Shown here in pieces: positions 6,785-54,315 of a stretch of 64,000 nt of DNA (position 1 is the first letter of the stretch; each line of letters starts with the position of its first letter). Origin of the DNA: Auricularia sp. M13 (lineage: Eukaryota; Basidiomycota; Agaricomycetes; Auriculariales; Auriculariaceae); contig CM073199.1 in assembly GCA_037042915.1 (NCBI GenBank), positions 1,488,001 through 1,552,000 of the forward strand, in the 5' to 3' direction. The notes under the pieces were generated by a model. The model was given only the letters and a program-made list of their open reading frames with translations, had not been told where the DNA came from and ran no database searches. Made by a program: the position numbers and the translations under genes.

Positions 6785-8453
6785 ATGGGATACGACAAAG
6801 CCTACGTCGGCGTCGGGACGCTGTCCATCGTGCTCGTGCTCATCCCCTCGCCATGGCACTTGTCCGCCTGGAACTCGGGTAAGTGGTTGTCGCCGCCCGC
6901 CCTGGCACCCTGCTAACTTGAGCAGCTACCTGCTACATGATGATGTGGTCCGCCATTGGGACCATTATCCACATGGTTGGCAGCACGCTCTGGCATGAGA
7001 GCATCCACATACCTAGCGTCTCCGAGGCGACCTGGTGCGACATCGGTATGTCTGCGCGATATCCCGGCTGCTAGCGGATGATCCTGACAGGGCTTGCAGC
7101 GACGAAGCTCATCATCGGGCTTAGCATTGCCATCCCACTCTCGTCATTCTCTATCAACCGCCGTCTGTATAACATTGCGACCATCAAGTCGGTCACCATT
7201 ACCAAGGAAGGCGTGAGTGCCAGACGCTGGCCTGCTTCATCGCCGTGCTCACCGGAAGCTTTCAGAAACGCCGCGACGTGATCATCGACACCATCCTCTG
7301 TGTCCTCTGCCCGATCATCTTCATGGCCGTCCACTACACCATGCAGGGCCATCGGTTCGACATCATCGAGAACATCGGTTGCTGGCCATCCACATATCTC
7401 ACGCTTCCCGCTTACTTCCTCGTTCTGGGACCGCCTATCATCGTCAGCGCCGTGTCGCTCGTCATGTGCTGTATGTTGCCTCCATCTTGCAGCTGGGCCA
7501 TCAGCTAATGCCTCGCAGCGCTCTCTATCCGGGCATTCATGAAGCGTCGCCAGGAGTTCAACGCTATCCTTCGCTCGTCGTCGACCGGCCTGAACCCGCC
7601 TCGCTACTTCCGTCTGATGGCCCTCGCGTCCGTTGAAATCATCTTCGGTCTGCCCGCAGGCATCTTCTTCATGGTCGTCGGCATCAAGAACAACGGCGTC
7701 CACAAGTGGATCTCCTGGGCGGACACGCACGCTGACTTCAGCCGCGTCGACAAATACAACCAGTGGCTCCTCGAGCACGGGCTGAAGAACGCCGGCAGCG
7801 TCGTCACCGCGTCGTACCAGATGAGCCGCTGGTCGTTCCCGTTCATGGGCCTCATCTTCTTCGGGTTCTTCGGCTTCGCCGCTGAGGCGCGGAGGAACTA
7901 CTCCGTCGCGTTCTGGTGGGTCATGGCCCGCTTCGGCGTGCAAAAGCCCGTCAAGAAGCCCGCCTCGTCGCAGACCAGCACGGGCATCTCGATCTTCGGC
8001 CGCCGCTTTGGACGCAACGGACGCCCGCTGCCCTCGGCGTCGCAGACTGGCGCCTCCGTCTCGGTCTCGCTCCCGCAGTACAACAGCAGCGCGAACTCGT
8101 CGCGCGAGAACCACCTGCCGTTCGAGGGCCGCCGCAAGTCCGGCGCGACCGTCGCGAGCCTCGATACCTCGATGCTGAACTCCGACAACGAGAAGCTCGA
8201 CGAGGTCTCCGCGCCGTCGTCGCCGAGCACCAGCTCGCCGCACGAGCTCACGCCGCCCGGCCTACGCATATCGTTGACCGATCTCGCCGACGTCAGCCGC
8301 AACGCCCGCGCCTCGTCTCTCCTCGAGACCCCCACCTCCCCTCCACCACGCCCGACCTCGTACAGCCGTCCCCCGACGATGACGCAACTGCCGCCCGCCC
8401 CGCGCGACGGCTTTGTCGTCCGTCAGGAGCTTGACGCTGCCCAGATGGTCTGA
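6785..8453 (+). CDS. STE3: STE3-type pheromone receptor 1 (B mating-type receptor)
   Basis: Seven-helix G-protein-coupled receptor of the fungal STE3 family, which binds farnesylated lipopeptide pheromones at the plasma membrane. Five exons give a consistent frame: 6785-6878, 6926-7045, 7100-7212, 7266-7470 and 7519-8453 (488 aa). Family landmarks are IPSPWHLSAWN in helix 1, TWCDIATKLIIG, SFSINRRLYNIA, the conserved loop HYTMQGHRFDIIENIGC, and FMKRRQEFNAIL. Hydrophobic helices fill about residues 1-310. The last ~170 residues form a Ser/Pro-rich cytoplasmic tail. The intron phases at WCDI|A and C|SLSIRAF match receptor 2, while the introns after WNS and KEG are absent there. No pheromone gene lies within 6 kb; the nearest are P1-P3 beyond the exchanger and OXA1 genes. 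Ligand specificity cannot be read from sequence. Confidence 0.95.
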
Positions 8454-15120: not shown

Positions 15121-15213
15121 ATGGACTCCTACGACTACGTTACCAAGCCCGAGACTGCCCCCGTCGAGAAGGAGCACACCCCAGTAACTACGGTTTACTG
15201 CATCATCGCATGA
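15121..15213 (+). CDS. CaaX pheromone precursor P2
   Basis: A 30-residue precursor begins MDSYDYVTKPETAPVEK and ends EKEHTPVTTVYCIIA. CIIA is the CaaX box. The EH pair ten residues before the Cys is the likely processing site, giving a mature peptide near HTPVTTVYC or TPVTTVYC. It is a tandem paralogue of P3: the N-terminal block VTKPETAPV is shared, the EKEHTPV and DKEHTPV segments align, and both 5' leaders contain CCAGCGTTGCACA. A 49-nt intron (15235-15283) starts 21 nt after the stop and carries a TGAC branch-like sequence. Confidence 0.93.
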   Translation: MDSYDYVTKPETAPVEKEHTPVTTVYCIIA

Positions 15214-15756: not shown

Positions 15757-15843
15757 ATGGATTCCTTCGTTACCAAGCCCGAGACCGCACCCGTCGACAA
15801 GGAGCACACCCCAGTGCCCGTCCCGCACTGCATCATTGCGTGA
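15757..15843 (+). CDS. CaaX pheromone precursor P3
   Basis: A 28-residue precursor begins MDSFVTKPETAPVDK and ends DKEHTPVPVPHCIIA. It is the shortest of the nine. Relative to P2 it lacks two residues near the N-terminus. Its predicted mature part (TPVPVPHC) differs from P2 (TPVTTVYC) in several positions, so the tandem copies probably encode different ligands. The CaaX box is CIIA and the EH processing pair is kept. A 42-nt intron (15863-15904, gtgagc...ccag) starts 19 nt after the stop. Confidence 0.92.
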   Translation: MDSFVTKPETAPVDKEHTPVPVPHCIIA

Positions 15844-22827: not shown

Positions 22828-25581
22828 ATGGCCTATCAGCAACTGACTGCGACGTCTCTTACGCCCTCACGTGCTGCGCCCTCGCCCCCGGTGGCCAATA
22901 GACGGGCGCAGGAGCCGCCTACCCAGTACAACTCACCGTATCAGAACTCGGCTAGTTACTCGCCAGCCTTCAATCTCAACTCCTCATCGCCGGCCATGTC
23001 TGCCTACAACTCGGGTTATAGCGGTATTGGGGCATCTCCTTTGCGCTCGTCGTCCGCCCCCAGCGCGTCCGAGATCATCAGACGGGGCTGGGCTTCAGTC
23101 AAAGAGGACGGCTTTGCCAGTTTTTTGTGGGCCAGGAAATATCTGATACTCAGAGATCAAACGCTCTCTTTCCATAAGAACGAGGTGGGCATCCATTGCT
23201 CGCATTATCCTGTCCCTGATATAGTCCACCAGTCCGGCTCGCAGACGAACGTGATCTATCTGCGCGATATCACCAACATCGAGCGCACAGACCTTAAACC
23301 TTATTGCTTGCTCCTGGATACGAAGGAGAAGCGGTTCTTCTTCTCACTCAAGAACGACGAGGAGGTCTATGGCTGGCAAGACGATATCTACTCGAGGAGC
23401 CCTCTCATGGGTGTCAGCAACCCGACCAATTTCGTCCATAAGATTCATGTTGGCTTCGATCCTATCAGTGGGGCGTTCACGGTAAGCATTTGTGTGGGTC
23501 ATCAGGTAGAAAACTCAATGGTCACAGGGCCTTCCCGAGCAATGGACTCGCCTGCTAACTCAGTCTGCTATCACGCGCGAGGACTATGCTCGGAACCCGC
23601 AGGCCGTCCTGGAAGTCCTGGAGTTCTACACAGACCACCAGAAACGCGCATTTGAGGACGACGGCATGTTAGCCCCGCCCCGCCTAGCTGGCAACAACGC
23701 GAACATGAATGCCGGTGCCTCTACCTCTTCGAGGCAACAGTATGATCCTGGCTATACACCGCGCTTTGGGGAAAAGACTGGCCTAGGTGGCGCACGAGCT
23801 GCCAACACCATGCAGGACAACCAGCTTGGTCCTGGAAAGGCGCCCGCAGTCGCACCACGCCCAGGTGAAATAGTCAACCTCCCTTCGTCACTGTCACGCG
23901 CGCCGAACAACGCTCCATATCCGACAGCTCAACGGCCAGCACCGCCTCGCCCTCCTATCTCTGCCCAGAGACCCGCACCACCCGCTCCGTCTATGGGAAA
24001 TGCTCGGCCTGACCCTGGTCAGCTTTCCCAGCGCTCACGGCCGCAGGGTCCACCCGGTGTACCATCGGAAGTCAGGCCTCCCGCGTCTGGTATGGAAGGA
24101 ACGTCGTCGTCCCCATCCATTAGCCAGCAGCGACCTGCAGCGCCGAACGTTAACCGTCCCGCGGAGCCCGTGCGGAAGGAGTCATTCGACCGAAATGACG
24201 CGCCAATGCAGGCTGTCCGGCCGGCGCTTCCTCCCTCGAAGTCGGCACCTGCTCCAGCTCAGCCCGCTACGCAACCGGCTCCAGGTCCGGCGGGTTCGCT
24301 CGTTGGGCCAAAGCCAATTAAGCCGCTGCATACAGGGAAGAAGCTTCCAGGACCCTCCGACGTCGCTTCACCCGCGTCTGCGCCCAGTCAAGAGAGTGTT
24401 TCTCGCAAGGAAACGCCTGCGCCCATCGAGGAAGGCTCGCGTGATGCTGCTGCTGCTGCTTTGGAGAAGCCAACGCCGAAAGTCGAGAAGCGCATCAGCA
24501 CACTCACCGAAGCTCAGATCATGGACAAGTTGCGGTCTGTCGTCAGCAGCGACGACCCGAAGACTCTGTACAGCACGATTAAGAAAGTGGGACAGGGGTA
24601 CGTGCCGGATGACCATGGCTATGCTGGTGATTGACATGTCGTCAAGTGCTTCTGGCCACGTCTTCGTTGCAAAAACACTCTCAACTGGCAAGAAGGTCGC
24701 TATCAAGCAAATGGACCTCACGATCCAACCCCGCAAGGAGTTGATCGTCAACGAAATTCTCGTGATGAAGGAATCCCAGCACCCTAACATCGTCAACTTC
24801 CTCGAGTCGTACTTGGTGAAGAACACCGAGCTCTGGGTGGTCATGGAGTACATGGAAGGCGGTGCGCTGACCGACGTGATTGAACACAACCAGCTCGAAG
24901 AGGATCAGATATCGAGCATTTGCTTGGAAGTGCGCACATCTTGGCTTTTTTACTCACCGGTGTTAATACGTTGCAGACGTGCAAGGGTCTTGGTCATCTT
25001 CACGAACAGCAAATCATTCATAGAGATATCAAGAGCGACAACGTTCTGCTCGACGCGCAGGGCCATGTCAAGATCAGTACGTCGTCGCTGCGCCGTGCAT
25101 GTTGCAGAGGACTAACACATCTCCAGCCGACTTCGGGTTCTGCGCCAAGCTCACTGACCAGAAGTCGAAGCGTGCCACCATGGTCGGCACACCCTACTGG
25201 ATGGCGCCGGAGGTCGTCAAGCAGAAAGAGTACGGGGCCAAGGTCGATATTTGGTCACTGGGCATCATGGCCATCGAGATGATTGAAAACGAGCCGCCAT
25301 ACCTGGACGAGGAGCCGCTCAAGGCACTCTATCTCATTGCCACGAATGGAACGCCGACGTTGAAGAAACCAGAAGCTCTGAGCAAGGAGCTCAAGAGTTT
25401 CCTTAGTGTTTGCCTCTGTGTCGACGTCAAGAGTCGCGCAACCGCTGATGAGCTCCTTGGGGTCAGTAAAACCCTTCTCCGTATTATGTGTCTAATTGCG
25501 CTGCAGCACGAGTTCCTGAAGAAGGCGTGCGCGTTGTCTGGGCTAGCTCCGTTGCTGCGATTCAGGACGAAAGCTGGCTAG
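22828..25581 (+). CDS. CLA4: CLA4-type p21-activated kinase (PH + CRIB + kinase)
   Basis: Seven exons keep frame throughout: 22828-23184, 23233-23481, 23528-24597, 24647-24929, 24977-25076, 25127-25461 and 25507-25581 (822 aa). A PH domain covers about residues 83-175 ([19 protein letters not shown] to [12 protein letters not shown]). A CRIB/PBD follows at about 179-235 ([28 protein letters not shown]). A long Pro-rich linker spans about 240-540, and a complete STE20 kinase about 550-810. The kinase has [26 protein letters not shown] and GTPYWMAPE. By homology it acts downstream of Cdc42 in polarity, septation and filament formation. CLA4 is, to my recollection, a frequent neighbour of B mating-type loci in Agaricomycetes, which supports the locus call. 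Pheromone P4 lies 390 bp downstream. Confidence 0.95.
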
Positions 25582-25972: not shown

Positions 25973-26077
25973 TCAAGCGACGACACAGTAGCTCCAGATG
26001 GTGCCGGGGCCAGTCTCGCGGCCACTGGTCTGCTCCTGAGAAGGCTGGGTAACGGAGGGGGTCGGCTGGGCGTCCAT
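25973..26077 (-). CDS. CaaX pheromone precursor P4
   Basis: A 34-residue precursor begins MDAQPTPSVTQPSQEQ and ends GRETGPGTIWSYCVVA. CVVA is the CaaX box. The RE/ET region about ten residues before the Cys is the likely trimming site, giving a peptide near TGPGTIWSYC. The N-terminal MDAQ...TQPS frame is shared with P9, 28 kb away, marking the two as paralogues. A TATATAAG box lies about 50 bp upstream (26127-26134). A likely intron lies just after the stop (gtgatgtgagt... to ...cctccag, about 25968-25909, with a CTAAC branch site), in keeping with P1-P3. Confidence 0.9.
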   Translation of the reverse strand: MDAQPTPSVTQPSQEQTSGRETGPGTIWSYCVVA

Positions 26078-26134: not shown

Positions 26135-27017
26135 CACGCGCCGGATTGACAAGGCAGTGAGACACTGTTATATGGTGTTGAGACATCCATCGGGCCCATA
26201 CCAGGGACGTTGTGGCCCAAGCAGTATTCACGTGGTTCTTGTTCCAAGTCAGCTTTGACCACGCCTGACGATTTTGTAAAAATTTTCGTTCATGGGATGA
26301 ATTGGGTCGCGAGTGATCACTGGTGCTTGTCACCCGTGGCTCGAGTTTTCCAAGTTACTTATTCTGAAGCAGCGTAAAAGCTGGAACCCATCTCTTATAG
26401 ATTGAATGAACGGGATACCGTGGTCGTACTCTCTCGGACAAAACTCGGTGATTGACTCGAAGGCGCGAGGTGATAAGTATCAGCATTGGGGAGGAGTCGA
26501 GATGCACCTGACAAAGTTCGCACCAGCGCGATCGAACGCAATGTGTTGCTGTCATGGTGGTTCCCTATCTGGGTGGCTATGAGAAATTAACCAGTCCGAG
26601 ATATCCTCTATTAGTCGCAGCTTGAAAGTCGAGGTCAGTATATAAGTACTCAAACGACGTTCTGACAGATTCTGACATACTGTATAGGTATCGCAAGACG
26701 AGATACGTCCATAGTCACTAGACTAGCATCATATTCTCAGTTTATTCCTCCATCTCTATCCCAGCCCTTGAATTCGCCAGACCGGAACTAGGTACAGGAG
26801 TTTATTAATCTGATGGCATTGAACAATGCGCTGCTCCGCGGCGGACTTGACGGTTATTACTCCGAAAACGAAGAGGGCAGCGTCGTACATACCGGTACGA
26901 ACGAACAAAAGCTGAAGCGCCATCTACTGTGCCAGCGCGTCATTGTTCATGTGCTATTGTCTCCACGTTTGTCGAAACGGCCCGGAACGCTCATGTGAGA
27001 ACAAAAGGCTGATGAAC
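26135..27017. other. Intergenic between P4 and P5
   Basis: Contains the P4 and P5 promoters. A TATATAAG at about 26640 precedes a 61-codon frame (26813-26998) with no CaaX end or domain, which I do not call as a gene. ACAAAAGG at 27001-27008 lies close to the P5 TATA run. Confidence 0.4.
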
Positions 27018-27031
27018 ATATATATATATAT
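27018..27031 (+). promoter_or_regulatory. TATA box of pheromone gene P5 (TA dinucleotide run)
   Basis: A run of alternating AT/TA lies 80 bp upstream of the P5 ATG. An in-frame ATG inside it (MDEYCQ...) would add about 27 residues, but it overlaps the TATA run and is unlikely to be in the transcript. Confidence 0.6.
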
Positions 27032-27110
27032 GGACGAGTATTGTCAGATCCTAATCAACACACGCACCTCCACCCCAGTTTTCCAGCGTCCTCTACTGCT
27101 TGCAACGCCA

Positions 27111-27239
27111 ATGGACGTGATAAACGACCTGTCCTCCATCTGGACCTCTGATAGCGAACCGGAACTCAACGACCCTACGCTTCTGCCTACAGACCTCGAG
27201 CGTCATGGCAGCGTAACGGTACTTTGCCTTATCACCTAA
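27111..27239 (+). CDS. CaaX pheromone precursor P5
   Basis: A 42-residue precursor begins MDVINDLSSIWTSDSEPE and ends DLERHGSVTVLCLIT. The CaaX box is CLIT, with Thr as the last residue. The stretch ERHGSVTVLC is identical to P1 although the rest of the precursor is unrelated. In this 30-nt block the two genes differ at five third-codon positions only, so the same mature ligand is predicted. A 49-nt intron (27252-27300, gtgggt...ttggtag, with a CTGAC branch) begins 12 nt after the stop. A more upstream in-frame ATG exists inside the TATA run; 27111 is preferred because of the MD start and distance. Confidence 0.9.
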   Translation: MDVINDLSSIWTSDSEPELNDPTLLPTDLERHGSVTVLCLIT

Positions 27240-42908: not shown

Positions 42909-42975
42909 TCAACCAGTGCGGGGTATGGTCAAGGATGGGCGTCGGACGTCACGGTCCCTCGCCGCTGAGTCAAAC

Positions 42976-43197
42976 GTTGAAACTGGAATTCCTCAATGCG
43001 TGCTATGTCTCCTTCTCGTCTCACAGAAACTGTGGTAGCATATTACAGTAAAGGTTCGTATAGCTTCGTCGCGTTGCAGAGTCTAAGTTGAAACTGGAAT
43101 TCCTCAATGCGTGCTATGTCTCCTTCTCGTCTCACAGAAACTGTGGTAGCATATTACAGTAAAGGTTCGTATAGCTTCGTCGCGTTGCAGAGTCTAA
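42976..43197. repeat. Perfect tandem duplication, 2 x 111 bp
   Basis: The unit starting GTTGAAACTGGAATTCCTCA and ending TTGCAGAGTCTAA occurs at 42976-43086 and again at 43087-43197, with no difference between copies. It lies between the DHHC gene start and the P6 stop, in otherwise unique sequence. Confidence 0.95.
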
Positions 43198-43372: not shown

Positions 43373-43522
43373 TCATGCAATGAGGCATGAATACGTGAAG
43401 CTCGATGGCCTGTCCTCGTCTGTCGGGACATCGAGAGGCTCATCGATGGGGGTGGAGGGCAGGTCACCCATGAAGGCTTCGTTCGAGAAGTGGGTGTCGA
43501 AGAAGATATTGATGGCGTCCAT
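43373..43522 (-). CDS. CaaX pheromone precursor P6
   Basis: A 49-residue precursor begins MDAINIFFDTHFSNEAF and ends DEDRPSSFTYSCLIA. CLIA is the CaaX box. DR, nine to eight residues before the Cys, is the likely processing pair, giving PSSFTYSC or RPSSFTYSC. The N-terminal half is acidic as in other long Agaricomycete precursors. A TATAAAG lies about 90 bp upstream at 43611-43617, within GGCCTATAAAG. No GT-type intron is evident right after the stop; a GC-AG intron (gcgagt...tttcag) is conceivable. It is encoded between the DHHC and RPN9 genes, away from the other pheromones. Confidence 0.9.
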   Translation of the reverse strand: MDAINIFFDTHFSNEAFMGDLPSTPIDEPLDVPTDEDRPSSFTYSCLIA

Positions 43523-48248: not shown

Positions 48249-49746
48249 TTATGAGATGGTAGGCTGTGAATCAGCGCCAGACACGGCTGGCATGGGCGTA
48301 GGCGTATCTAACGACCTGCGGGTAAATGTAGGCGTCGCTTGTTCAAGGTCTGTACCTTGAGGACGATACTCGGGCGCTGGGTCGAGCCCGGGCGAAATTT
48401 CAAGATCAGGTAGCGTGAGCGACATTGCCGACGCTGTCTCGAGATTGACTCGACGCATTTTATATACGGGCGGAGGCGGCCGAGGATAAAGGCTCTGCTT
48501 GACGGTCGTAAGGTCGAGCGATATGTTGTCCGGCTGTGAGCCGCTGAGGCTGGGACGTCTGTTGGTATTACTAGGCAAGGTCAACTCAGTGTGAAACCCC
48601 TTCAGCACATTGGCGTACCTGAACTGGGGCAAGGATGTTCCCTTGCTAAACTCAGTGCGGACAGGCTTGCCCATGGCGCGTCGAATCTTCCGCCAGACCC
48701 AGCCAAATATGGCACCGTAACCTTCGCGGGCCTCCTCGCTCAGCCCAAAGAAGATGAAGAACAGGATCGCAGTGCATGGCAGTATCCACCAGGAAAGAAT
48801 CAGCCGCGTCCAATCATCAGGACGGACAATCCACTGCGGCCAGATTGCAACTCGGGAGAAGTTGTAGTGCACTTCGTCCCAGCCGACCATCGGGCGCACT
48901 CCATTAAAGTGGATGTTTGCGACGAGAACATAGATGCCCAGCGACGTGCCCCAGAACATTTCGGAGAGGGCCAGCGCCATCAGACGCATATACCGCGCGG
49001 TGTTGAGCGAAGACTGCGAGTTGCGCAGATGTTGCTCAAACTCGAGCCGCCGCTTGGCGAAGTGCCGCAGAGCGAGAGCTGGGGTAAGCTCAGTCCTCCG
49101 CACAATGTCGGAAAAAGGTGACGCACCAGCATATATGAGAGATCCGATGGAGAGAACAATAGGGACAGTGTTGACAATCAGCAGGCCGAGGATGGACGTG
49201 TAAGTCACGGGCTGGCAGCCGATGTCCTCGATGATATCGAAGCGATGTCCCTGTACGGTGTAATCTGAAAACATGAGCCCGGTGCCGTGGTAAAAGGATG
49301 AGAACCGTACGGAGGATCATGATGAGCACGGGGAGACCGAATGTAATGCACAACTCGACGATTCGGCGACGTCTCTTGTCAGCTGCAGTAGTAATCGCAG
49401 AGCGAGCAGAAGCAACGTGTTCCAAGTGACGAGTAAGACAGAAGGAGCACGCAGGCAATGCGACGCTCATTCCAACAAGAATCTTGGTGGCTGGAAACTA
49501 TGAGCGTTGTTGCGAGGACCGGCTATTGACGAAGGACTCACAGATGTCGCACCAAATTCTGAAGCGTATGACGATGTTGTCCATCCAGATGATTGAGTTG
49601 ACTCCGCGAACAATGCTACACACGATGATCCAGGCGATGAGGGAGAGTGTCGCGACGTTGCGAGCCTTCCAATGCCATGGCGAAGGCAGGAGGACGAGGA
49701 AGATGGACAGGAAGGAGAATATTGGGAGCGCGTAGTTGTGGCCCAT
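48249..49746 (-). CDS. STE3: STE3-type pheromone receptor 2 (B mating-type receptor)
   Basis: Second STE3-family receptor. Exons 49746-49542, 49490-49311, 49264-49127 and 49078-48249 give 450 aa in frame. It begins MGHNYALPIFSFLSIFLVL. Landmarks include LLPSPWHWKARNVATL, RIWCDISTKILVGMSV, HYTVQGHRFDIIEDIGC, IYAALALRHFAKRRLEF and FFGLSEEAREGY. It shares the phase-1 introns at WCDI|S and Y-A|ALALR with receptor 1, but it lacks the KEG intron and has its own at IL|HYTVQ, so the two are old paralogues. The Ser/Pro-rich tail is about 150 residues. ACAATGG and ACAAAGGCAC occur 85-110 bp upstream. The nearest pheromone genes are P7 (1.7 kb away), P8 and P9, which suggests one P/R subunit here. Confidence 0.95.
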
Positions 49747-51430
49747 GGTGCGGAGGGTGATAGCGGGGGGGCGGATGCGGAGTGGAAACTCCAAAGGCTG
49801 CTAGGCATGGTGCTATAAGCATCTGAGACAGACAATGGTCAGGAGAACAAAGGCACGGCGGCTCGTCCGGATCGGAATTAGCCGACGCTTCTATGCAACA
49901 ACGAGACCGAAATCCCACACAAACAACACTCACGTGTACAGCGCAACTCTCACCCTCTAGGATCAGTTACACATACCATTGTCGATGGAAACGTTGGATG
50001 GTACCTCGATCGCCGCAAGGCACAATCTAAATTTAACTTTTAGTCTTTATATCCTGAGCCGCGGACCTAAAGCACGGCGCCTGCGATGAATGTCCTCGAT
50101 CAGCACGTGGGAAAGAATGAAGAAAGGAAGTGGGAATCGCATCGGTGGATTTGCAAGTGCTGTGGATCTGCAAGTGCTGAGCAGACGGCCCAAGGCCCAA
50201 GGCCTGCTTCGCTTCTATCCATTGCACCCGTCGCCGACTCTGATCACAAGGGGTCAGCTTCGTGCACCTGAGCATGGCAAGCCACCTCAGCCCACTCGAT
50301 CTGATTCCCTTGTGCAGCTTTACCATGACGATATGATCGATTATCGACTACAATCTTTGCGTAGCCACTGTCTTTCTTTGCGTCGGGGAGATTCGCTCTC
50401 TGATACCATGCAATGCACGGGGACACTGGCCTGGGAAAGTTCTTTACTGCACGGTACCGCATTCGCGTTTCAATTCTCATAACGATCACCATTGCCAATT
50501 CCATACGCCATTTGAAAGTGCGAAGCACGTCCCCCGGAGCGGTGACCAAGGACCCTGAGCCTCTTCTGCATTACTACCCTGACGTATGCATCCAGATTAT
50601 ATGGTATATATGAATTCGTGCAATGCTCTGCCTCAGATAGAGCTCCTGCAGTGATATTTTTACCCCACGAGTGTAGGGTTCCTGAGGGCGATGGAGCCTC
50701 CGCGTGACCAAGTTTAAGATGCAAATCGTCTCCCTTGGTCGACAATGATAGTATTGCCATGATTTGAACGCTCTCGTCTGTGTACTCTCTGGTATGAAGC
50801 TCAGCAGTCTAGATTCAATTCAAGCGTGGCACGCATCCGGCCCATTTCTAGGAGGCGGTGTGTGGGTTCACGTGCACATTGGCAGCGCGACGCGCCGAAG
50901 TTTCGTCGCATATGAGCTCAGAAATAAGTGAGATTCTGAGACTGGGGGTGTCTCGCGTCCCCGAACAATCTAAAAAGGTTGGAAACAGCGTAAGGGCCAT
51001 GGCAAAGCCTGGCTGCGGCGTGAAAACTCTCTCAAACACAAAATGCTAGTCGTCTCAGCTCAGATGCTTTGAACTCCATCCTCAGCTTCTAAATATTGGA
51101 TAGCAATGTGCCAGAATCATGTTTGTGGTATCCGACGTCCGTGCGCATGCTGTAGCGCGAAATTTGTGATCAGTGTTAAAACAGTAAGGTCGTTACTCGG
51201 TTACTTGCGCGGCGACGCGGAGAAACTTCATCAAACACATAGCTCGCGCGTAGACCCGTCGTAAAACCCAAGTATTCTTCAAAACATGGTGTAGTAATAC
51301 AAGTTAACAAGGGAGACAACATAGGCCTCTGAGTACGTATACACGAAGGTCGAATCAACTGCCCATCGCGGTCCGTGATGTAAGTCATAAGTTCCAGTGC
51401 ACGCGCGAGTCAGAGCGACCTGGACGTACT
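49747..51430. other. Intergenic between receptor 2 and P7
   Basis: A 1.7-kb stretch with the receptor 2 promoter (ACAAAGGCAC near 49849) and the P7 3' flank. I looked for further CaaX precursors on both strands and found none. Short frames carry no domain. Confidence 0.45.
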
Positions 51431-51598
51431 TCACGCGATGATGCAGGTGTAGGTGGGACCGCCCGGGGTGTCGCAGTTCACCTCCGGCTGGCTGGTCGAC
51501 GAACGAGCGACGATGCACGTGTAGGTCGGGCCGCCCGGGGTGTCGCAGTTGACGTCGGGGGCGGTGGTCTCGATGGAGTGGTTGGCAATTGCGTCCAT
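51431..51598 (-). CDS. Double-unit CaaX pheromone precursor P7
   Basis: A 55-residue precursor contains two nearly identical pheromone units. Residues 1-16 are MDAIANHSIETTAPDV. Residues 17-31 read NCDTPGGPTYTCIVA. After the spacer RSSTSQPEV, residues 41-55 read NCDTPGGPTYTCIIA and end the protein. Only the second Cys-aliphatic-aliphatic-Ala is C-terminal and can be prenylated directly; the first would have to be exposed by cleavage at the following Arg. The presumed processing point is around CD/TP, giving TPGGPTYTC. DNA of the two units is also very similar, pointing to internal duplication. A TATA element lies 65-72 bp upstream. A GTACGT donor lies 1 nt after the stop. Multi-copy precursors are known in red yeasts, but I know of few in Agaricomycetes. 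Confidence 0.92.
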   Translation of the reverse strand: MDAIANHSIETTAPDVNCDTPGGPTYTCIVARSSTSQPEVNCDTPGGPTYTCIIA

Positions 51599-53097: not shown

Positions 53098-53229
53098 CTA
53101 TGTCAGAACACAGTATATGTTCCAGGGGCCCGCACGATCCGAATCGACGAGTTGCGGTTGGTCATTGGCGTCATTGTCATTTGACGATGAGTGTGTGCAG
53201 GAGTAAGAGAGCGATTCAAAGGAGTCCAT
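53098..53229 (-). CDS. CaaX pheromone precursor P8
   Basis: A 43-codon frame begins MDSFESLSYSCTHSSSND and ends DSDRAGPWNIYCVLT. CVLT is the CaaX box, with Thr last. The DR pair eight to nine residues before the Cys is the likely cut site, leaving AGPWNIYC or RAGPWNIYC. Its last 15 residues align with those of P9 (DSDTPGPWNTYCVIV), so the two are paralogues of one ligand type. TATATAAG lies 63-70 bp upstream, and CTATTGT (ACAATAG on the minus strand) just beyond it. The frame is easily missed because it is so short. A 3' intron after the stop is possible but less clear than in P1-P5. Confidence 0.88.
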   Translation of the reverse strand: MDSFESLSYSCTHSSSNDNDANDQPQLVDSDRAGPWNIYCVLT

Positions 53230-54219: not shown

Positions 54220-54315
54220 ATGGACGCCCAAGCCTCTACGTACACTCAGCCCTCCGCCGGCCCCGTCGACAGCGACACCCCCGGTCCCTGGAACACCTAC
54301 TGCGTTATCGTCTGA
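54220..54315 (+). CDS. CaaX pheromone precursor P9
   Basis: A 31-residue precursor begins MDAQASTYTQPSAGPV and ends DSDTPGPWNTYCVIV. The CaaX box is CVIV; a terminal Val is uncommon for farnesyltransferase substrates, though Cys, Val and Ile are in the right places. The likely mature part is TPGPWNTYC. The N-terminus matches P4 (MDAQ, TQPS) and the C-terminus matches P8, so P9 links these into one family. A TATATAAG lies 50 bp upstream. A 50-nt intron (54317-54366, gtgagc...ctcacag, with a CTAAC branch) starts 1 nt after the stop codon. Confidence 0.9.
   Translation: MDAQASTYTQPSAGPVDSDTPGPWNTYCVIV

Follow-up and report, generated by a model that had tools for sequence, protein, structure and literature searches.

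Does a mushroom pheromone gene that carries two pheromone units yield one peptide or two, when the inner unit is not at the end of the protein? The question is raised by P7, a 55-residue ORF that runs from ATG to TGA on the minus strand at 51431..51598 of the stretch of DNA analyzed here (64 kb, referred to as the window). Its translation is MDAIANHSIETTAPDVNCDTPGGPTYTCIVARSSTSQPEVNCDTPGGPTYTCIIA, followed by TGA; the plus strand of the same interval does not encode this protein. The original prediction had placed a precursor with two near-identical units at these positions. The coordinates proved right, the coding strand being the minus strand, and the description of the units was equally accurate: they differ in a single residue, V30 versus I54, which lies in the CaaX box (CIVA versus CIIA), and they are joined by a nine-residue linker.

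A mushroom-type B mating-type locus

The window represents a mushroom-type mating-type locus of class B, with pheromone and receptor genes (Table 1). It contains nine ORFs with an MD start and an aliphatic CaaX end, named P1 to P9 in window order and including P7, whereas 0.19 were expected based on 100 first-order Markov sequences, the maximum in any one sequence being 2. Searching the genome for the STE3 family returned five matches, corresponding to two genes, R1 and R2, both inside the window. This exon-by-exon search, evaluated for the best candidates, revealed no further STE3 gene elsewhere in the genome. The R2 gene shares the strand of P7 and lies 1.7 kb downstream of it; its family matches span 48717-49722 on the minus strand. 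It was modeled with four exons encoding 450 amino acids, open throughout, with introns placed by eye; 6 hydrophobic helices exceeded the threshold versus the 7 expected. The window thus holds nine pheromone genes versus only two STE3 receptor genes. It also contains a gene for a Cla4-type PAK kinase; in Trichaptum, MATB is described as flanked by PAK (PMC8970355).

Table 1. Positions, strands and attributes of the features described in the text.
Feature	Position	Strand	Remarks
STE3-type receptor gene R1	6922..7901	+	three family matches; extent is that of the matches
P1	14539..14634	+	from inner ATG (MDSF...CIIA); PF08015 E 0.045, under cut-off
P2 pheromone precursor	15121..15213	+	
P3 pheromone precursor	15757..15843	+	
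PAK (Cla4-type) kinase	22828..25581	+	PH, PBD and protein kinase domains in successive ORFs
P4 pheromone precursor	25973..26077	-	
P5 pheromone precursor ORF	26949..27239	+	probable start is the inner MDVIND
P6 pheromone precursor	43373..43522	-	PF08015 E 0.0096, under cut-off
STE3-type pheromone receptor gene R2	48249..49746	-	PF02076 E 6.2e-42 and 8.5e-34
Intron-like stretch, P7 3' UTR	51359..51429	-	71 nt; donor GTACGT 1 nt past stop; prediction
P7 unit 2 (C-terminal)	51434..51478	-	residues 41-55, NCDTPGGPTYTCIIA; true CaaX end
Copy 2 of 63-nt direct repeat	51435..51497	.	
P7 linker RSSTSQPEV	51479..51505	-	residues 32-40
P7 unit 1 (inner)	51506..51550	-	residues 17-31, NCDTPGGPTYTCIVA; CIVA internal, Arg32 next
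Copy 1 of 63-nt direct repeat	51507..51569	.	83% identical to copy 2; spacing 72 nt
TATAAA	51664..51669	-	begins 71 nt upstream of P7 ATG
P8 pheromone precursor	53098..53229	-	PF08015 E 0.046, under cut-off
P9 pheromone precursor	54220..54315	+	

P7 has the MD start, the C-terminal CaaX box and the STE3 linkage of Agaricomycete B-locus precursors. It resembles the ordinary phb/PP precursors described from mushrooms in these features, including the clustering with STE3 genes, and in the acidic residue before the Cys (PMC3140503, PMC8970355, PMC5473757). The charged processing doublet (ER, EH, DR or similar) was sought 10-15 residues before the end. At the aligned place, both P7 units have Cys-Asp-Thr, such that the acidic residue is present and its basic partner absent; P9 has Ser-Asp-Thr at the same place and likewise lacks the basic partner. 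The Pfam pheromone family, PF08015, did not match P7 even at an E value of 10. Among the eight proteins submitted (P3 was left out), P1, P6 and P8 gave weak matches (E 0.0096-0.046), none of which reached the cut-off. A genome-wide search using PF08015 was discarded as uninformative, as it returned zero matches and missed the known genes too. The Pfam failure is therefore not specific to P7.

The anatomy of the genes is shared as well. In seven of the nine genes, a fixed pattern finds a TATA-like box 55-95 nt ahead of the MD start; P2 and P3 have ATAAATA upstream instead, found by eye. An intron-like stretch comprising donor, branch site and acceptor begins 1-32 nt past the stop codon in all nine pheromone genes. 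The strict donor GTRNGY is present in seven of these stretches; the wider pattern also admits GTCAGT (P8) and GCGAGT (P6), two donors taken in once these genes had been inspected. In a control of 4000 random places in the window, the strict form was found at 3.7% and the wider form at 4.2%. Thus, the occurrence of the strict form in seven of nine genes is far beyond chance (binomial 3e-9). A positional rule that looks for an intron-like stretch shortly behind the stop codon could help to find such pheromone genes. Together with the nine ORFs, the two STE3 genes and the kinase, this shared anatomy supports the view of P7, taken in the original prediction, as a pheromone precursor with two units. 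The gene is intact, and the B locus around it is of the mushroom type.

The eight neighbors of P7 have one unit apiece, versus two in P7. The P1 ORF (14449-14634) and P5 have an identical predicted mature peptide, ERHGSVTVLC, in precursors that are otherwise different; they flank the PAK gene at a distance of 12 kb from each other. This pair represents dose through gene duplication, unlike P7. Over the last 16 residues, P2 and P3 form a similar pair (score 60 of 85-91), as do P8 and P9 (69 of 92-95), the latter in opposite orientation. A 111-bp tandem repeat of 2.1 copies with 98% matches lies at 42967-43197, approximately 180 bp from P6. The window was scanned for units by ungapped BLOSUM62 comparison using all ten C-terminal 16-mers as queries, and there was no convincing new copy, extra or decayed, among the matches listed, up to seven for each query. 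The best non-gene match to a P7 unit scored 36, compared to best scores of 25-41 for 20 shuffled queries. The P7 unit scored 37 against P6 and 34 against P9, neither being clearly closer than chance. By position, P9 and the P7 unit pair up as VDSDTPGPWNTYC / VNCDTPGGPTYTC, with a score inside the chance range.

The tandem repeat and the terminus of P7

Analysis using TRF described the P7 repeat as having a 72-nt period, 1.9 copies and a score of 193. The last six residues of the linker, TSQPEV (35-40), align with TTAPDV (11-16) of the pro-region ahead of unit 1. Based on this alignment, the repeat takes in the end of the pro-region, and the segment that was duplicated, in frame and in tandem, is the pro-region end, the mature peptide and the CaaX box. 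Six of the nine linker residues are unlike their pro-region counterparts. Both units retain P-D/E-V, Asp-Thr, Cys and aliphatic-aliphatic-Ala. Codons 32-34 (9 nt) resemble neither flank, matching at 1/9 positions upstream and 3/9 downstream. A duplication reaching past the stop codon, with the linker as old 3' UTR and Arg32 as the former stop, was considered and rejected: the local match was 7 nt long (P 0.39 in shuffles). Finally, a second Cys directly precedes the Asp-Thr site in each unit (VNCD; Cys18 and Cys42, 51434-51550). If the cut precedes this Cys, the mature P7 peptide would carry two cysteines.

An assembly error or the splicing out of a unit would leave a mature P7 transcript with one unit. 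The original prediction had named a frameshift or assembly error between the units as possible grounds for its refutation. No frameshift is seen in the sequence of P7, and the units differ at 5/45 nt, which argues against an assembly duplicate. The P7 DNA is present once in the genome (52.1 Mb, 14 contigs), and a degenerate pattern for the predicted peptide, TPGGPTYTC, matched the genome twice, both times in P7, while the reversed control pattern did not match. With respect to splicing, the linker holds a donor-like word, GTTCGT, and nothing further was found in favor of a one-unit transcript. Donors located within the initial 138 nt of the ORF find no acceptor plus branch site at a distance of 40-110 nt. 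Further along, two donors do have such a partner, the acceptor that also serves the 3'-UTR intron, but they score 0 and 1 of 3, versus 3 of 3 for that intron's own donor. Splicing that removes a unit was therefore rejected, there being no convincing candidate among the combinations of donor, acceptor and branch site, and we regard a one-unit transcript, through either route, as scarcely credible. Given the predicted 3'-UTR intron directly after the stop codon, and as no splice inside the ORF is convincing, unit 2 appears to be the genuine end of P7, with no convincing spliced product ending in CIVA.

Possible conservation of the inner unit

The similarity of the units may reflect nothing but recent duplication or gene conversion, and would then be uninformative on function. 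Gene conversion has been proposed in red yeasts to maintain inverted repeats that hold whole pheromone genes (PMC3236058). Either process would, however, equalize synonymous sites and linker along with the peptide, and these differ in P7 at 4 of ~11 sites and 7 of 18 alignable nt, respectively, making this account very unlikely.

Over their 15 codons, the units differ by four synonymous changes and one nonsynonymous change (pS 0.36, pN 0.03), as compared to a pS of 0.56 and a pN of 0.55 for the nine codons of linker and pro-region. This mostly synonymous change resembles the pattern described for a red-yeast tandem-peptide gene, in which the changes between strains of two species are synonymous only (PMC3236058). 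The Fisher test on the units (p 0.0096) and simulations of drift from either unit (P 0.004-0.027; three segments, six settings) take both copies as free and thereby overstate selection. When only unit 1 was free, the values were 0.086 over the 15 codons, 0.063 over the 12 codons ending at the Cys and 0.040 when counted from V16. For all three segments, 0.60, as obtained for the 15-codon unit, was taken as the nonsynonymous fraction to be expected. Nonsynonymous change in unit 1 was low relative to the linker rate (p 0.033 one-sided, 0.056 two-sided) and relative to the linker and synonymous sites combined (0.024 and 0.050, respectively); a Poisson version in which the neutral rate was fixed gave a p of 0.012. 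Similarly, the overall rate of change in the units, 5/45 nt, was lower than that in the linker, 7/18 alignable nt (p 0.028). The unit-1 tests overlap and are mutually dependent, and the data behind them are 5 changes among 45 nt.

These tests bear on whether unit 2 is the only pheromone in P7, unit 1 being a duplication remnant in a longer pro-region that is cut off and degraded upon release of unit 2. Such a precursor needs ordinary enzymes only, and P7, at 55 residues, falls below the upper limit of ~100 amino acids given for precursors (PMC4101180). The tests in which only unit 1 drifts are borderline as well. Against this, unit 1 keeps its Asp-Thr, its Cys and its CaaX pattern, with fewer changes than in the adjacent linker. 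The original prediction had left room for a remnant that only adds length: the preponderance of synonymous change and a linker that diverged freely disfavor it, but the p values of the unit-1-only tests, 0.01-0.09, leave this option weakened rather than overturned. We consider a remnant credible, though not probable. As judged from the substitutions, the inner unit may be kept by selection, for which support is modest.

Proposed maturation of P7 and its precedents

We propose that P7 is the precursor of a functional farnesylated pheromone and that its inner unit is released at or after Arg32, so that each precursor supplies the peptide twice, a reading to which we assign a probability of about 0.5. 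P7 originated through an in-frame tandem duplication of the pro-region end and the mature peptide. Unit 2 would take the ordinary route, in which Cys52 is farnesylated, IIA is removed, methylation follows and a cut is made near Asp43/Thr44. Prenyltransferases act on C-terminal CaaX boxes, and unit 1 would accordingly require a prior cut. We infer that this cut, at or after Arg32, exposes CIVA or else CIVAR, which could either be shortened to CIVA by a carboxypeptidase or serve as an extended motif. The exposed unit would be processed like unit 2, with a cut near Asp19/Thr20. One P7 transcript would thus yield two copies of TPGGPTYTC, or of a peptide a few residues longer, and the effect of the second unit would be on dose, not on specificity.

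Several of these steps can be compared to described systems. In mushroom pheromones, the C-terminal CaaX box is farnesylated, trimmed and methylated, and the precursor is cut at a charged doublet (PMC8305134, PMC3140503), the freed peptides having 9-14 residues (PMC4101180). Unit 2 fits this route, with Asp43-Thr44 at the aligned place but without the doublet's basic partner. FvPp1 of Flammulina has one residue past its CAAX box, and the effect on processing is described as uncertain (PMC3140503). The rhodotorucine A precursor is described as having CAAX-like spacers and giving rise to several peptides (PMC3068285). Similarly, P7 holds two copies of the predicted mature peptide in one ORF, and its internal CAAX-like sequence is followed by a basic residue (CIVA-Arg32). 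In rhodotorucine precursors, too, a basic residue follows the internal CaaX; it is Lys in Rhodosporidium and Arg in P7. By this analogy, a cut at Arg32 that gives a second prenylated peptide is plausible.

Alternatively, unit 1 might be freed unprenylated by cuts at the Asp-Thr sites, as a peptide spanning Thr20-Asp43 or a shortened version of it, and act as a weaker or modulating ligand. The Asp-Thr site is common to both units and no cut at Arg32 would be necessary. In work on Coprinus cinereus cited in PMC3068285, moreover, prenylation did no more than increase the pheromone's efficiency. An unprenylated peptide would, however, have no need of the aliphatics and Ala after Cys28, and these are kept, the change at V30/I54 being conservative and that at A31/A55 synonymous. 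In addition, no route is known to us by which such an unprenylated peptide would be exported. Overall, we consider this alternative unlikely.

Among the closest known systems are the red-yeast RHA precursors of Rhodosporidium and Sporidiobolus, which also have tandem farnesyl-pheromone copies and an internal CAAX-like sequence (PMC3068285, PMC3236058), a likeness drawn from descriptions. Tandem pheromone units are described for RHA2 (PMC3236058). The red yeasts belong to another subphylum, Pucciniomycotina, and, unlike in their precursors, each P7 unit has its own pro-region end and acidic site, with a nine-residue join. Red-yeast precursor spacers are short. The comparison to red yeasts made in the original prediction was a fair one, and there are further precedents in MFA1 of cereal rusts (PMC10977897) and the h-type precursor HPP1 of Trichoderma reesei (PMC3068285). 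Rust MFA1, alongside which Microbotryum is cited, has tandem repeats in one precursor and is linked to an STE3 gene (PMC10977897). Its three repeats are of similar sequence, unlike the two P7 units with their identical predicted peptide, and the rust receptor system, mostly biallelic, differs from that of P7. In HPP1, which is needed for male fertility, CaaX-like motifs are repeated and the last one is C-terminal, as in P7 (PMC3068285). HPP1 is from an ascomycete and has two Kex2 sites, which are dispensable for fertility in that fungus; in contrast, P7 contains one Arg and no Lys, and therefore no dibasic Kex2-type site, whether between its copies or elsewhere.

No tandem precursor from Agaricomycetes was found among the titles and abstracts listed. 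The available text passages of papers on Agaricus, Hypsizygus, Pycnoporus, Rhizopogon, Trichaptum, Grifola, Pleurotus and Flammulina contain no tandem precursor, and those of papers on Wallemia and Phaffia do not mention tandem units. As precursor alignments are usually given in figures and supplements, this absence from titles, abstracts and text passages is weak evidence. The Trichaptum study left out candidate ORFs of <100 or >200 bp (PMC8970355), and longer tandem genes could be missed through a size filter of this type. Tandem precursors are known elsewhere; as far as we know, the processing proposed for P7 is without precedent in Agaricomycetes.

More generally, mushroom-forming fungi may make tandem farnesyl-pheromone precursors in which a protease exposes the internal CaaX box before prenylation, P7 being an independent origin of the rhodotorucine design that raises dose. 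We offer this tentatively, at somewhat less than even odds; independence from the red-yeast RHA genes is assumed from the single-unit form of the neighboring genes. How an internal CaaX box is prenylated is described as unsolved for rhodotorucine, whose maturation enzymes were described as not known in 2010 (PMC3068285). P7, next to eight single-unit genes, offers a direct comparison, as the same cell must either cut or ignore the inner box. If true, the two-unit design would mean that dose is raised within a gene, in a locus that otherwise multiplies genes, and would suggest that pheromone dose, beyond specificity, is under selection in B loci.
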